Shown piece by piece: positions 52,391 to 57,284 of a stretch of 64,000 bases of DNA. The stretch covers positions 4,650,001-4,714,000 of the forward strand of contig NZ_CP084032.1 in assembly GCF_020181655.1 (NCBI RefSeq). The letters run 5' to 3'. Below the pieces are notes generated by a model that saw only the letters and a list, made by a program, of their open reading frames with translations, had not been told where the DNA came from and searched no databases. The position numbers and the translations under genes were made by a program. The first letter of the stretch is position 1. Each line of letters opens with the position of its first letter. This DNA is from Pectobacterium colocasium (GTDB taxonomy: Bacteria; Pseudomonadota; Gammaproteobacteria; Enterobacterales; Enterobacteriaceae).

Positions 52391-52488
52391 TTCACGACAA
52401 GCGCTACAGGGCAGACGGTTTTTTCTATCCCCTGCGGCGGACTCAACGCTATAATCTTTCTCATCATTTGCTTTACAGGTATGCACCA

Positions 52489-53352
52489 ATGATTCGCAGC
52501 ATGACCGCTTACGCCCGCCGAGAAATCAAGGGCAACTGGGGAAGCGCAGCCTGGGAACTGCGTTCCGTTAACCAGCGCTATCTGGAAACCTATCTTCGTT
52601 TACCGGAACAATTCCGCAGCCTCGAACCCGTCGCTCGTGAGCGCATCCGCGCCCGTTTGACCCGTGGCAAAATCGAATGCAACCTGCGTTTTGAACTCGA
52701 CCCGAGCGCGCAAAGTGCGCTGATCCTGAACGAAAAGCTGGCGAAACAGCTGGTTAATGCCGCCAACTGGGTCAAAATGCAGAGCGACGAAGGGGAAATC
52801 AACCCGGTTGATATTCTACGCTGGCCTGGCGTAATGTCGGCGGAAGAGCAGGATCTGGATGCGATCAGCGCCGAACTGCTGACCGCTCTGGAAGGTGCGC
52901 TGGATGACTTCATCGCCGCACGTGAAAGCGAAGGCAACGCGCTGAAAGCGCTGATCGAACAGCGCCTGGCTGGCGTCAGCGCCGAAGTCGTCAAAGTCCG
53001 CGCCCAGATGCCAAACATCCTGCTATGGCAGCGCGAACGCCTGCAAAGCAAGCTGGAAGATGCGCAGGTACAGCTGGAAAATAACCGTCTGGAACAGGAA
53101 CTGGTGCTGATGGCACAGCGCGTCGACGTCGCCGAAGAACTCGACCGCCTCGACGCTCACGTCAAAGAAACCTACAAAATCCTGAAAAAAGAAGAAGCCG
53201 TCGGCCGCCGCCTCGACTTCATGATGCAGGAATTCAACCGCGAATCGAACACGCTGGCCTCGAAATCCATCAACGCCGACGTCACCGCTTCAGCCATTGA
53301 ACTGAAAGTGCTGATCGAGCAAATGCGGGAACAAATCCAGAACATTGAGTAA
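52489..53352 (+). CDS. yicC: YicC-family endoribonuclease
   Basis: 287 residues from the ATG at 52489 (MIRSMTAYARREIKG), the E. coli length; seven more codons upstream are open but not conserved. The N-terminal YicC domain (RSVNQRYLETYLRLPEQFR) and C-terminal DUF1732 (RRLDFMMQEFNRESNTLASK) are both present. E. coli YicC has been reported to act as an endoribonuclease on small RNA. It normally lies back to back with rph; here it is 10.7 kb away. Confidence 0.95.
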   Translation: MIRSMTAYARREIKGNWGSAAWELRSVNQRYLETYLRLPEQFRSLEPVARERIRARLTRGKIECNLRFELDPSAQSALILNEKLAKQLVNAANWVKMQSDEGEINPVDILRWPGVMSAEEQDLDAISAELLTALEGALDDFIAARESEGNALKALIEQRLAGVSAEVVKVRAQMPNILLWQRERLQSKLEDAQVQLENNRLEQELVLMAQRVDVAEELDRLDAHVKETYKILKKEEAVGRRLDFMMQEFNRESNTLASKSINADVTASAIELKVLIEQMREQIQNIE

Positions 53353-53380
53353 ATTCCACTCTGTACCACCGACTGCCACA

Positions 53381-53406
53381 ACGCCCTGTTTTAAGGGCGT
53401 TTTTTG
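53381..53406 (+). terminator. Rho-independent terminator of yicC
   Basis: The 7-bp stem ACGCCCT/AGGGCGT with a 6-base loop is followed by six T, 28 bases past the stop. Confidence 0.9.
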
Positions 53407-53733
53407 CTTATGAAGAATAACAACGCAGAAAAACACGTTACTTGTCTACATTCAAATATACCCAATCACTAAGGTGTAAAGGACCAAATATGCACTACCT
53501 TGTATAGTCTTTGGATATGATCAAGATGATGAAAATAACAGGCGCTCAAAGCAACGCATTGATATCCGCGCCTAAGCAAGTAGTTTATGCAAGTTACTAG
53601 TCTAACGAGGGATAACTCCGTTTATATAAAATTCGGCAAAATCAGTAGAAACGAATTGACGCGAGATCAGCGTTGCACAAAAATGAAGCTGTGATGATAG
53701 ACGATCTTTATATTTAAGGGCGCAAGACAGCAG
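53407..53733. other. Spacer upstream of the PIN module
   Basis: This AT-rich stretch marks the step from core genome to accessory genes. No gene, tRNA fragment or obvious attachment repeat is seen. The promoter of the module should lie here. Confidence 0.4.
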
Positions 53734-54450
53734 ATGGGCAAGAAAAATAGCCTGACTCTCAAACTTGACGGCACAAGCCCAGATAAACTGCCAATGGCTA
53801 GACTGGGTAAGTATCTGTCTGCACTTTCAGAGCTTTACGGCTCTACTGATGCCGTTCACTTCAAGGATGTGAGCGAGGGCTCTGCGTGCCTAAACAGCTG
53901 GGTTGACAATGACTCTGCATATAATGATGTATTGCAGCGCTCCATATCTCAAGCATCTAATTCAGGTAGCTCTTACCTGAAACTGGTTACATTATTAGAG
54001 CAAGATAAGCTAGAGGGGAGAATTATCAATGACGATGACGTTACAATTGTTGATTTCCCACGAATAAAACAAGACTCTCCGTTTTTGGTTAGAAAGAAAG
54101 CAAAAATACAAGGCAGACTGTATAACGTCGGCGGCAAAGATGAATCAGTCCCTGTAAAATTAGAGGGTGCAAATGGGGAGACATTCAACTGTGAAGCTTC
54201 TCCATCGATGGCAGTTAAACTCGGAACCCTGCTCTTCCAACAGATAAGAGTAGAGGGCGATGGTGAGTGGGAAAAAAAAGACGGAATATGGAAGCTCAAG
54301 AAGCTTAAAATTTCATCATATGAAGAGTTGCAAAAGTCATCTCTAAAAACCGCTTTGTCATCCATACATAATGCGCCTGGAAATCAATGGAAAGAACAAG
54401 ATGACTTACATGTTGTCTTAAAAGCACTAAGGGCTCTCAGTTGCGAATAG
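53734..54450 (+). CDS. Unknown protein paired with a PIN-domain nuclease
   Basis: 238 residues, not recognised. The N-terminus MGKKNSLTLKLDGTSPDKLP and the block SELYGSTDAVHFKDVSEGSA look globular and soluble. The centre (about 95-190) appears beta-rich, with VRKKAKIQGRLYNVGGKDES and GTLLFQQIRVEGDGEWEKKD. No signal peptide or membrane helix. Its last 10 bases overlap the PIN gene, so the two are co-translated. It could be an atypical antitoxin, a target-recognition partner or a regulator; nothing in the sequence decides this. Confidence 0.75.
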   Translation: MGKKNSLTLKLDGTSPDKLPMARLGKYLSALSELYGSTDAVHFKDVSEGSACLNSWVDNDSAYNDVLQRSISQASNSGSSYLKLVTLLEQDKLEGRIINDDDVTIVDFPRIKQDSPFLVRKKAKIQGRLYNVGGKDESVPVKLEGANGETFNCEASPSMAVKLGTLLFQQIRVEGDGEWEKKDGIWKLKKLKISSYEELQKSSLKTALSSIHNAPGNQWKEQDDLHVVLKALRALSCE

Positions 54451-54986
54451 TCTTTGATACCAATGTGTTAGTTCAAGCGATTACTGGCACTAAAGCTGGT
54501 TGTACATTATCAAACCCTGCGAATGGGGAGAATATACCTGACCTTGAACGCAGGATGGATGCCCTAATTGATCACGTAGAAGCAAATCGCGGCAAAATAA
54601 TAATTCCAACGCCGGTTTTAGCAGAATACTTAGTTGGGATCGATAAGAGCCATCATCAGACGCATTTAAATCTTATACAATGTCAGTCATGCTTTGAGAT
54701 CGCCCCGTTTGATGAAATTGCGGCCATTGAGTGTGCACAGATGCCAAGTATAAAAGAACTAAAAGCGATGATGGCTAAAGACACAGCAAACAAAGTTAAG
54801 TTTGACAGGCAAATAATATCCATTGCGATTGCACTAAATGTAGATGAGGTATGGACTCACGACAAAGGTGTTTACAACCGTTGCAATGAACTGGGCATTG
54901 TAGCCAAATCTCTAGCGGACATAACACCAGCACCCAAACAAGGGATCATTGATTTGTCGAATGAATTCCCAACTGAGCTTCATTGA
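54441..54986 (+). CDS. PIN-domain ribonuclease
   Basis: 181 residues from TTG 54441, inside the end of the upstream gene. The PIN acidic residues are visible as D6 (VFDTNVL), E62 (VLAEYL), D122 (KFDRQI) and D141 (THDKG). PIN proteins of this size are often VapC-like toxins that cut RNA; here the partner upstream is far larger (238 residues) than a normal VapB antitoxin. A possible weakness is the TTG start, but no later start keeps the first Asp. Confidence 0.82.
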   Translation: MRIVFDTNVLVQAITGTKAGCTLSNPANGENIPDLERRMDALIDHVEANRGKIIIPTPVLAEYLVGIDKSHHQTHLNLIQCQSCFEIAPFDEIAAIECAQMPSIKELKAMMAKDTANKVKFDRQIISIAIALNVDEVWTHDKGVYNRCNELGIVAKSLADITPAPKQGIIDLSNEFPTELH

Positions 54987-55048
54987 CACCAACCTCAGCC
55001 TACTTTCAGGTTTCTTATTGCCTACCTACGCATCTACAATTTTAACCA

Positions 55049-55065
55049 ACTACGAAACTCGTAGT
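55049..55065. promoter_or_regulatory. Perfect 7-bp inverted repeat ACTACGA-AAC-TCGTAGT
   Basis: It lies 60 bases upstream of the small gene at 55125. It could be a regulator site or, with its 3-base loop, a small RNA hairpin. There is no T tract, so it is not a clear terminator for the PIN module. Confidence 0.35.
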
Positions 55066-55091
55066 ATCTGAACCCGTAAAAAGCATCGACA

Positions 55092-55126
55092 ATTGGCGAC
55101 ACTGACTTTCAAGGAGGATCGCCAAT
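55092..55126 (+). promoter_or_regulatory. Hairpin enclosing the ribosome site of the 89-residue gene
   Basis: ATTGGCGA (55092-55099) pairs perfectly with TCGCCAAT (55119-55126). The loop contains the strong AAGGAGG, and the right arm ends in the first two bases of the ATG. In RNA this would cage the start codon, so it may control translation. Confidence 0.5.
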
Positions 55127-55394
55127 GACCACGACAAATGCAGCCATTACCGAGAGTTCCATTACCATTTTCCGAGACCTCATCGCTTCGCTACCCGTTG
55201 CTCACCTTAGTCATGCTCAGCGTGACGATTTCAGCGCAATCGCCGCTGAGTCGGTTGAAGGGTTGTGCCACGGTCTGCAATATGCCAGCGAATCACTGGC
55301 GACAGAAGCCACCACAGAACACCTTCAACAACTCAGAGCCTACCTCAGTACTTGTGCGCACCTGATCCCTGCGCTGATGGTAATCAGCGAATAG
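55125..55394 (+). CDS. Small protein of unknown function
   Basis: 89 residues, MTTTNAAITESSITIFRDLI onward, preceded by an exceptionally good ribosome site (AAGGAGG, 7 bases before ATG). It is predicted helical with no membrane segment; the end STCAHLIPALMVISE is hydrophobic. I do not recognise the family. Its start codon lies in the arm of a predicted hairpin. Confidence 0.7.
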   Translation: MTTTNAAITESSITIFRDLIASLPVAHLSHAQRDDFSAIAAESVEGLCHGLQYASESLATEATTEHLQQLRAYLSTCAHLIPALMVISE

Positions 55395-55447
55395 ATGGCA
55401 TCAGTTCGCACCGTAAACCCCACCTAAACTGTCTCTATCCGATCCTA

Positions 55448-55828
55448 ATAAGGACAAACCTTCTATAATTTGTCCTTATTGGCTTGAACTTTGTCCTTAT
55501 ACCTACTACGTTTAGAGACACCGACTACTATTCTGTCCTTATAAAAATGAGCCAAGACAATCGTATACAGCAAGAAAAAACATCAATTTTGAAAGCAATG
55601 CTTCAGTTCGATGAAGCAAAAAGCTTGGGCGAAATTGAAAAATTATTATTATTTTCAATAAATAAGAAAACACTACAGCGCCGACTTAAAGAGCTGTACG
55701 ACGACAGGCAAATCGTGACGGTAGGGGAAAAACGCAATACTAAATATTATGCAAATAAGGACAACTCATCTTCATTGCGTGTCCTTAAGTCATTCGATAA
55801 GGACACTATCGATAACAACACAAGGACA
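55448..55828. repeat. Eight-copy array of the 9-bp motif TGTCCTTAT / ATAAGGACA
   Basis: Copies on either strand start at 55448, 55471, 55492, 55534, 55755, 55780, 55797 and 55820; six are exact and two (55780, 55820) differ at one position. The first two form a perfect 12-bp inverted repeat around TATAAT (55464-55469), a consensus -10. The third and fourth lie between that and the ATG at 55547. The rest lie inside the Fic coding region in more than one reading frame, so they are not a by-product of protein repeats. This looks like a multi-site operator, plausibly for the protein's own winged-helix domain. Confidence 0.75.
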
Positions 55829-56962
55829 ATACGTGCAGATGAAGACAATCACCCCATCTTTTCCAAAGAGGCTATCTCACAGCTCGCCTATTTAGATACG
55901 CCTTCGTATGCACGTAAAAAATCCAGCTATCAATTTGATATTTTGGATAATTATTTACCCAACGTAACTCAGTACCTGCCGAATCAGATACAAACGACGC
56001 TGGCGAAAATGGGGAAACGATTTGATGACACACTGGCAGCAGGGACTTATGCGAGGAATATTAGTCAACGTCTACTCATTGATTTGTCTTATAACTCTAG
56101 TCGACTAGAAGGTAATACCTACTCCAAGCTTGATACACAAAAACTCATAGAACAGGGGCTGACAGCCGATGGTAAAGTTCATAAAGAAACCATCATGATC
56201 ATGAATCACAAAGAAGCGATTGAATTTTTAATTGAAAATGCCGAAGAGATAATAATTAATCCCTTCACAATCAGAAATATTCACGCCCTGCTTTCGCAAG
56301 ATTTACTCGCCAATCCCAACGCATGCGGTAACATCAGGCAGATAGAAGTCTCTATTGGAAAATCGGCCTATTTGCCGCTAAACAACCCCCATCAACTCGA
56401 AGAATACTTCTCTCTATTGCTACGCAAAGCAGAACAAATCCACGACCCATTTGAACAGAGCTTTTTCTTATTCCTTCATTTATCGTATCTACAAGCCTTT
56501 GAAGACGTAAACAAGCGAACTGCTCGATTATCTTGCAATATCCCTTTTATTAAGCACAATTTTTGCCCGTTAAGTTTTATTGATGTACCGCAAGAGGATT
56601 ACTTTAAAGCATTGCTGTACTTCTATGAAACCAATGAGCTCCTGCCCGCTTTGGAGCTGTTCAAATGGGCCTATACGAGATCTTGCGAACAATATGATGT
56701 AGTAAAAGAGTCGATTGGCGAAATTGATATTTATCGCATACAACATCGTGTGGCACGAAAAGTGGCGATGGGGAGTATTATCCGGGAAAATCTTAATGAA
56801 CAGCTTGCAGAACAATATCTTGAGAAATATTGTGCAGAAAATGAAATTCCTTCTGCCGATAAATTTATTGCCATGACACTCAGTGATTTAGCTCAACTTC
56901 ATGTTGGCTCAATCATTGGACTTGGCATTACAGAAAAAATGTTTATTGAGTGGAAAAAATAA
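55547..56962 (+). CDS. Fic-fold protein with N-terminal winged helix; catalytic His replaced
   Basis: 471 residues from ATG 55547; an in-frame TTG at 55484 would add 21 residues but falls among operator-like repeats. It has an N-terminal winged helix-turn-helix (about 10-70: TSILKAMLQFDEAKSLGEIE, KTLQRRLKELYDDRQIVTV), then a Fic domain with the self-inhibitory-type motif SSRLEGN (184-190) and the core motif Q316-A-F-E-D-V-N-K-R. Active Fic AMP-transferases have His at the Q position and Gly at the V position, so catalysis by the normal mechanism is doubtful. A C-terminal helical part follows. It may be a DNA-binding regulator or use altered chemistry. Confidence 0.87.
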   Translation: MSQDNRIQQEKTSILKAMLQFDEAKSLGEIEKLLLFSINKKTLQRRLKELYDDRQIVTVGEKRNTKYYANKDNSSSLRVLKSFDKDTIDNNTRTIRADEDNHPIFSKEAISQLAYLDTPSYARKKSSYQFDILDNYLPNVTQYLPNQIQTTLAKMGKRFDDTLAAGTYARNISQRLLIDLSYNSSRLEGNTYSKLDTQKLIEQGLTADGKVHKETIMIMNHKEAIEFLIENAEEIIINPFTIRNIHALLSQDLLANPNACGNIRQIEVSIGKSAYLPLNNPHQLEEYFSLLLRKAEQIHDPFEQSFFLFLHLSYLQAFEDVNKRTARLSCNIPFIKHNFCPLSFIDVPQEDYFKALLYFYETNELLPALELFKWAYTRSCEQYDVVKESIGEIDIYRIQHRVARKVAMGSIIRENLNEQLAEQYLEKYCAENEIPSADKFIAMTLSDLAQLHVGSIIGLGITEKMFIEWKK

Positions 56963-57139
56963 TTGAATAAACGGAAGAATCGCAGCGAATCGATAGGAGT
57001 TACTCGTCAGGACAGAAACGTAATAGTGGCGAGCGGCAAAGCGGTATCCAAAGATCACCAAAATGCCAAGCTAGACGCCGAATTTGCTCTCATCATGCAG
57101 CGCCACGGTCATACCATCGAAGCACTGCATGACCGATGA
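56963..57139 (+). pseudogene. Possible gene remnant after the Fic gene
   Basis: A 58-codon frame starts with TTG directly after the Fic stop and ends at 57139, giving SIGVTRQDRNVIVASGKAVS and then KLDAEFALIMQRHGHTIEAL in the second half. The C-terminal part looks protein-like, but there is no ribosome site or good start. It may be the 3' end of a lost gene. The family is not recognised. Confidence 0.3.
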
Positions 57140-57284
57140 TAAATGCAACAAAATAGGACTGTATTCCTACAATCCCATCAAAAATGGGAATATAGTCCCA
57201 TCATCGCAGTACAAATCGATCCACCAAATCACCAGCACCATCTCAGGAACATCTTCACCCGCAACAAAACAGGGAAAAACCGTC

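Follow-up and report, generated by a model that had tools for sequence, protein, structure and literature searches.

The locus considered here raises the question of why a single nine-base word, TGTCCTTAT, should crowd together over the start of a fic gene. A sequence-only reading of the window, i.e., the whole 64,000-nucleotide stretch of Pectobacterium colocasium DNA analysed, had counted six exact copies and two with one change within 381 bases, four of them inside the coding region in different frames, and had proposed that they form a cooperative operator array read by the winged helix of the very protein that the gene encodes. The count holds: positions 55448-55828 contain six exact and two one-mismatch copies, and these six are the only exact ones in the 64-kb window, against a mean of 0.29 and a maximum of 2 in 100 dinucleotide shuffles of it. 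Across the 4,912,018-bp genome (one contig), the word occurs 24 times, a rate from which 0.0014 copies would be expected per 381 bp, and each of the 18 off-locus copies is isolated. The 8-mer TGTCCTTA is found 60 times, seven of these at the fic locus and the remaining 53 spaced by at least about 1 kb; no second array of either word, searched as exact words, is present in the genome. With the fic ATG at 55547, four copies are upstream and four within the gene, the latter at nt 208, 233, 250, and 273 and in three frames, as had been claimed (Table 1). Two outcomes had been named as speaking against an operator array, namely a word that is common across the genome and related fic genes that lack the array. 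Since the word is rare genome-wide and none of the six Pectobacterium orthologues compared lacks the array, neither was seen.

Table 1. Coordinates of the fic gene, its protein segments, and the putative half-sites in the window; variation refers to the six Pectobacterium orthologues.
Feature	Position	Strand	Remark
Putative operator half-site 1, exact TGTCCTTAT	55448..55456	-	0/9 bases vary
TATAAT between sites 1 and 2, candidate -10	55464..55469	+	absent from the other five orthologues
Putative operator half-site 2, exact TGTCCTTAT	55471..55479	+	0/9 bases vary
Putative operator half-site 3, exact TGTCCTTAT, 21 bp from site 2	55492..55500	+	0/9 bases vary
Putative operator half-site 4, exact TGTCCTTAT, 42 bp from site 3, directly 5' of the ATG	55534..55542	+	1/9 bases varies
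fic gene, 471 aa	55547..56962	+	winged helix, linker, Fic core, helical C-terminus
Predicted recognition helix, codons 40-52	55664..55702	+	AlphaFold model
Putative intragenic half-site 5, exact TGTCCTTAT, codons 70-73 (NKDN)	55755..55763	-	0/9 bases vary
Disordered linker, codons 77-98	55775..55840	+	carries sites 6-8; site 5 lies just before
Putative intragenic half-site 6, one mismatch TGTCCTTAA, codons 78-81 (RVLK)	55780..55788	+	0/9 bases vary
Putative intragenic half-site 7, exact TGTCCTTAT, codons 84-87 (DKDT)	55797..55805	-	0/9 bases vary
Putative intragenic half-site 8, one mismatch TGTCCTTGT	55820..55828	-	2/9 bases vary
SSRLEGN, codons 184-190, class-II-type inhibitory motif	56096..56116	+	kept in the loci examined
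Fic motif QAFEDVNKRTAR, codons 316-327, Gln replacing His	56492..56527	+	motif alignment

The protein itself offers a candidate reader for such an array. The AlphaFold model predicts a confident winged helix at the N-terminus, with a recognition helix at residues 40-52 (mean pLDDT 88), and a helical C-terminus; a first model was poor outside the winged helix, and a second one, based on alignment A2, was used instead. Membership in the Fic family is indicated by a PF02661 profile match above the gathering score together with the Fic fold. The catalytic His of HPFx[D/E]GN[G/K]R, which marks active AMPylating Fic enzymes, is replaced by Gln in 90/90 non-redundant loci, in 118 of the 120 listed homologues (those whose motif fits the pattern), and in 101/101 sequences of A2; at least 7968 of 8000 scored candidates match the Fic protein, and the statement on Gln covers the listed and aligned proteins and the fetched loci. 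The class II signature (S/T)xxxE(G/N) is retained, with S184, E188, and G189 present in 90/90 loci. PADLOC matches to SoFic / PDC-S04 fall in the Fic core, with best E values of 1e-14 to 1e-15 for each protein; the output gives no cut-off. Matches to FICD (PDB 6i7l, 4u0u) likewise cover the Fic core alone (model residues 145-393) and leave the winged helix outside, and in 5jj6, a homologue of FICD, the corresponding position holds the catalytic His. The His-to-Gln substitution is already published as a hallmark of Fic ‘clade D2’, the consensus of which, Qx[FY]x[DE][GV]NKR, is fitted by Q316-A-F-E-D-V-N-K-R324. The accessible text on that clade (45 sequences) presents usually single-domain proteins and describes no winged helix, array, or regulatory role (PMC4454073), unlike the three-part organization of winged helix, Fic core, and helical C-terminus predicted here.

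If the copies are functional, they should resist change where their surroundings do not, and comparison within the genus allows this to be gauged. The fic gene is found in 5/24 other same-genus genomes. Across the six orthologues, bases in the promoter sites vary at 1/36 positions against 27/69 in the flanks (Fisher p 2e-5). The intragenic sites vary at 2/36 positions, both in site 8, compared with 22/55 in the rest of nt 200-290 (p 0.0002) and 23/85 in the rest of nt 200-320 (p 0.007); against the whole rest of the gene (213/1377) the difference is not significant (p 0.15). Third codon positions within them vary at 0/12, versus 10/35 nearby (p 0.046) and 137/459 in the rest of the gene (p 0.022). 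Thus, at the level of sequence, intragenic conservation is clear relative to nearby DNA and not relative to the whole gene. Half-site 8 is exact in L002 and reads ATAGGGACA in 4/6 orthologues. The homologous block that carries the gene begins, in window coordinates, at 55407 in G012, at 55444 in G006, and near 55050 in G010, G023, and G005. Its other end lies just after fic, at 56972, in G012, G010, and G006, and further right in G023 and G005. In all five of these genomes, the array lies inside the block common with the gene, and in two of them the outermost copy sits approximately where homology starts. As the block edges enclose both gene and array, the array travels with fic. In G018, both flanks are present and the fic block is missing, and the stretches fetched from G016, G020, G007, and G009 contain no match to it.

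At the promoter, sites 1 and 2 form a perfect 12-bp inverted repeat (arms 55447-55458 and 55469-55480), as the sequence-only reading had it. Its further point, that this repeat surrounds a consensus TATAAT, does not survive comparison: the hexamer's last base (55469) falls inside the right arm, and the other five orthologues have TATGAA, TATAAA (three), or TATAAC in its place. Scanning 55380-55560 for a sigma-70 consensus turned up no promoter. Between 55520 and 55549, a Shine-Dalgarno-like purine run is absent before the ATG, and half-site 4 occupies that place. At the homologous locus L026, a TATAAT lies 7 nt 5' of the ATG, which would fit a leaderless mRNA.

Outside Pectobacterium, the exact word TGTCCTTAT is in none of the fetched homologues over the stretch scanned. 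Their own upstream regions, however spelled, were examined by an unbiased test in which the most frequent 8-mer, with one mismatch allowed, was counted in the 200 bp upstream of fic. The training set comprised the loci numbered to L076 (76), from which L009 and L011 were dropped for want of a match at 1e-20, L017 for lack of a start, and L008 as short; 14 of the 72 left were removed as redundant, giving 58. A held-out set of 40 loci was reduced to 32 by removal of L103, which lacks a start, the short L106 and L116, and another five that were redundant; for seven of the held-out loci, the protein was already among earlier matches, their DNA having previously not been looked at. In the unbiased test on the 58 loci, p is at the floor of 0.005 in 28 and at most 0.05 in 40. 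One 8-mer occurs at least five times upstream of fic in 39/58 loci versus 52/1038 control windows from the same loci, and at least six times in 25/58 versus 8/1038. The promoter in our window gives a count of 4 (p 0.02), a value reached by 4/13 of its own control windows. The words so recovered constitute one family, mainly T[G/T]NCNN(A/T)A, which includes TGTCCTTA of Pectobacterium, TGTCCATT, TGACCTTA, TGGCGCAG, TGTCGCAA, TTGCGCAT, TGGCCGTA, and others. The pattern T[GT]NCNNN[AGT] scores at least 2.5 in 78/90 fic upstream regions (51/58 training, 27/32 held-out) versus 9/715 control windows; the five held-out loci with v < 2.5 were set aside, leaving 27 usable ones with a clear motif, and over both sets a clear array was not found in 12/90 loci. 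Most of these homologues thus have an array upstream of fic in a spelling of their own.

Most of these arrays have 3-6 sites near the start codon. The region upstream of L039 (about -340 to -47) has TGGCGCAA 13 times, with 10 sites in the last 220 bp, mostly at a pitch of 18-20 bp, which exceeds the need of a simple operator. Upstream of L110, L111, and L112 there are tandem half-sites, 4-6 copies at a pitch of 11-12 bp, about one helical turn, a packing that differs from the usual 20 bp. Seven genomes (G051, G131, G172, G246, G653, G954, and G1168) each possess two Fic relatives with different arrays. Orthogonality of such co-resident paralogues was considered and set aside: the 8-mers differ in 7/7 comparable genomes (weak L007 included), a figure that is uninformative because two random loci share an 8-mer only about 4% of the time.

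The differing spellings allow a more incisive question, namely whether they follow the predicted DNA-contacting part of the linked protein. Homologues that differ in the recognition helix have a different half-site in the corresponding position. Residues 39, 41, 44, and 45 track half-site bases 3, 5, 5, and 2, respectively, residue 39 being just before the helix at 40-52. Y/F45 goes with T and R45 with G at base 2 in 78/78 loci (51/51 in training); in training, K41 goes with C at base 5 in 7/7 loci, with a single C among 44 R41 loci, and the base-3 rule fits 39/42 R45 loci. These three rules were frozen before the 40 new loci were fetched. On held-out loci, base 2 was right in 27/27 (26 G, one T) and base 3 in 26/27, T being right in four of five predictions and G in 22 of 22. 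The frozen base-5 rule failed (14/26). All 12 of its misses have R/K at residue 44, and with ‘or R/K44’ added it fits 78/78 over both sets, a repair that is post hoc. Over both sets, the base-3 rule holds in 64/66, a figure that leaves out two of the 68 R45 loci with A at base 3, unforeseen by the rule. Among the nine control windows that pass the score, the rules are right in six (base 2), one (base 3), and five (repaired base 5).

Shared descent could mimic such a code, and two analyses bear on this. On a tree built from the Fic part alone (66 loci for base 3), base 3 and its rule each change 11 times. Eleven independent pairs can be drawn over all branches, of which 9-10 are concordant and none opposite (sign test about 0.002-0.004); with well-supported branches only, there are six pairs, about five concordant and none opposite (p 0.06). 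Base 5 undergoes four changes and base 2 only two, every one of them concordant; the 78/78 of base 2 hence does not represent 78 independent cases. Mutual information was computed on the 429/470 columns filled in 90% of loci, the unfiltered version having been dominated by gappy linker columns. For base 2, residue 45 ranks first of the 429 columns (NMI 0.95, next 0.38), and for base 3, residue 39 ranks first (NMI 0.35, next 0.25). Residue 44 comes first for base 6 and residue 47 for base 8, both narrowly, and for base 7 no recognition-helix column is within the top eight. The base-5 link is confounded by descent, since residue 44 is equalled in rank by several columns of the Fic core. Thus, as read from genomes, array spelling follows the linked recognition helix at two bases.

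The geometry of the sites points in the same direction. Distances between neighbouring half-sites (TG-type motifs, gaps up to 60 bp) were taken by orientation, modulo 10.5. Their mean phases are 9.8 (++), 0.2 (--), 6.4 (+-), and 2.5 (-+) in training and 10.2, 0.4, 6.7, and 2.7 in the held-out loci, with mean resultant lengths of 0.60-0.94; the loci are related, which makes Rayleigh p values inexact, and the held-out phases repeat those of training. The Pectobacterium gaps, both upstream (22 for -+, 21 and 42 for ++) and intragenic (24 for -+, 18 for +-, 23 for --), are within about 2 bp of these family phases. Judged from these spacings, the half-sites of training and held-out loci alike lie on a single DNA face.

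The extension of the array into the gene, which the sequence-only reading had suggested, has a narrower reach: it stands in the Pectobacterium and L014-like subclades and fails across the family. The peptides NKDN, RVLK, DKDT, and TRT, located at codons 70-94 within the disordered linker or next to it, are the translation of the four intragenic sites, and synonymous recoding produced three TGTCCTTA in 0/20000 trials. At K41 loci, own-motif sites have a density of 14.5 per kb in the linker versus 2.1 elsewhere in the gene (from 11 and 22 sites at 8 loci), values that omit the hand-set motifs (L007, L014, L015, L086) and redundant rows; with three extra rows, two of them redundant (L015 and L086, both with L014), and with the hand-set motifs, they become 15.6 versus 2.0. 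At 70 R41 loci, the corresponding densities are 0.88 and 1.06 per kb. As L027, L043, and L044 have no intragenic own-motif site and L045 has one, the feature is confined to the two groups named. Peptides that echo the sites (KD, VLK, and the like) occur 59 times in the linkers of 75 homologues versus 12.7 +/- 3.4 in permuted ones, on a list chosen after the linkers were inspected; the 75 are those of 120 proteins that had a pattern-delimited linker.

The array, its conservation, its phasing, and its covariation with the recognition helix, along with the lack of another exact-word array, lead us to consider it probable, on the strength of sequence comparison, that the eight copies are half-sites of an array to which the winged helix of the encoded protein binds, autorepression being the most likely purpose. 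To that extent, the proposal of an operator array read by the encoded protein is upheld at the sequence level, by the near-invariant promoter copies, the covariation, and the common face. Under it, Fic subunits would occupy one DNA face at intervals of roughly one or two helical turns, over the promoter region and, in the Pectobacterium subclade, on a second stretch inside codons 70-94. Accumulated protein would most likely shut its own gene down by negative autoregulation, with the intragenic group perhaps serving as a roadblock or loop partner. Binding, cooperativity, repression, and looping are what we infer, and the Gln-substituted Fic core would likewise have a regulatory rather than a catalytic role. 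The genome lacks another exact-word array, which makes self-regulation, rather than control of a regulon, the most likely task of the protein. Neither the weaker intragenic conservation against the whole gene nor a more cautious view of the family's size alters these odds, because the argument draws mainly on the promoter array and on the held-out loci.

Among the alternatives, activation of the gene by its own product through the array appears unlikely. In-phase upstream sites are compatible with it too, and the promoter is poor by consensus, but the sites reach the start codon and recur inside the gene, whereas activators rarely bind down to the start codon or within a gene. Further, the characterised relative CccR is a repressor according to the available text of its report (PMC9755527). 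We likewise give little credence, even less than to activation, to an array that the Fic protein binds for a non-transcriptional end, as an iteron- or centromere-like element that helps to maintain mobile DNA, autoregulation then being a by-product. Repeats of 20 bp that are in phase and bound by a winged helix do resemble iterons; long arrays occur, as at L039, and some homologues are on plasmids, several beside integrase genes. However, the gene studied here is chromosomal, what other Pectobacterium genomes have in common with it is a block of gene plus array, and most arrays elsewhere consist of 3-6 sites near the start codon. Nor do the annotations of the plasmid loci (available for 13 of the 15 fetched; L072 and L073 have none) show a neighbour shared by all.

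That a different regulator, for instance one encoded elsewhere in each host, reads the array is very improbable. In its favour, the evidence is drawn from sequence; against it, bases 2 and 3 follow residues of the recognition helix in the linked Fic protein, also at held-out loci, and the array lies in the gene's block in the five other fic-bearing Pectobacterium genomes. Finally, the region is A+T-rich (36% GC versus 50%), and copies 1 and 2 could pair in RNA; still, an origin of the array in chance, base composition, a transposon relic, or an RNA hairpin is scarcely credible in the face of the shuffles, the genome counts, the footprint in orthologues, the phase of all orientations, and the recoding. 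Chance and composition in particular are rejected by the shuffles, genome counts, and recoding along with the unbiased 8-mer test. We therefore retain the autoregulatory array as the preferred explanation.

Fusions of Fic proteins with HTH domains have been recognized for a long time. It was proposed that such domains may regulate fic expression, though the available text describes no operator, specificity code, or array for these fusions (Kinch et al., 2009; PMC2686095). The closest precedent is CccR of Yersinia pseudotuberculosis, a Fic-HTH protein that represses its own promoter via two inverted 10-bp repeats; within the literature searched, in so far as its text was accessible, it is the only Fic-HTH protein with a mapped specific operator. 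The protein studied here resembles it in combining a Fic domain with a DNA-binding domain and in having an inverted repeat over its own promoter region (12 bp, its core bases unchanged in orthologues). In CccR, by the available text, the HTH is C-terminal, the catalytic His is present, and one pair of 10-bp repeats 26 bp apart was footprinted (PMC9755527), in contrast to the predicted N-terminal winged helix, the Gln, and the multi-copy phased arrays, some with intragenic sites, found here. CbFic2 of Coxiella burnetii is comparable as a DNA-binding Fic protein, a property predicted here, and in its class II inhibitory helix/motif; it has a C-terminal HTH and HPFDDGNGR with His, its DNA binding alters enzyme activity, and the accessible text establishes no specific operator (PMC10628234). 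In the open-licence PMC literature, as far as its text was accessible, we found no description of a multi-site array or recognition code for the Fic family. The family-wide array with its partly readable code, its intragenic extension with the peptide echo, and the link to the Gln-Fic clade hence appear to be new.

The relatives' own array spellings make part of a DNA-recognition code readable from genomes; it is testable for a whole, little-known protein family, and the putative operators of dozens of homologues, along with some of the residues that would choose their bases, can be read in this way and were checked on held-out loci. It also suggests self-regulation as the likely role of Fic proteins that lack the catalytic His, and points to a candidate operator located within coding sequence, its DNA site being echoed by the linker peptide encoded there. 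More speculatively, and with more doubt than conviction on our part, the Gln-substituted Fic family might consist of self-contained DNA-array regulators, each with a private, evolving half-site code and a Fic core that acts as a nucleotide-responsive switch, some of their operators being intragenic and shaping the linker, such that NKD, VLK, and DKD would be the operator's translation. If so, the Fic core would release or tighten the array, and the large Gln-Fic family would not be toxins.

The distribution of fic is patchy: at E <= 1e-60, and with its own genome included, it is found in 36/369 sampled genomes of the class and 10/394 of the order. Two-gene Fic toxin-antitoxin systems (Phd-Doc, FicTA) are defined by an adjacent conserved antitoxin; no such neighbour is common to the annotated plasmid loci, and in three Pectobacterium genomes the homologous block stops just after fic. 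Neighbours at the plasmid loci include integrases, WYL, SIR2, TIR, HipA, ThiF, and others. A single-protein scan of phage collections gave no match; these collections contain four partial Fic matches in phage records and five distant relatives in viral contigs. In the window, two overlapping genes lie between a yicC-like gene and fic: 53734-54450, encoding a 238-aa protein without a Pfam or NCBIfam match (E up to 0.1), and 54441-54986, encoding a PIN-domain protein (PF01850, E 1.5e-5). Together, they may form a two-gene toxin-antitoxin or defence unit. The gene at 52468-53352, which we take to be yicC, has matches in 24/24 same-genus genomes searched, its own included. What follows this gene (within 52468-57157) differs between genomes of the genus: the fic block is missing in some, and where both genes are on one contig, as in five genomes (again with its own included), about 1.5-13 kb separate them.
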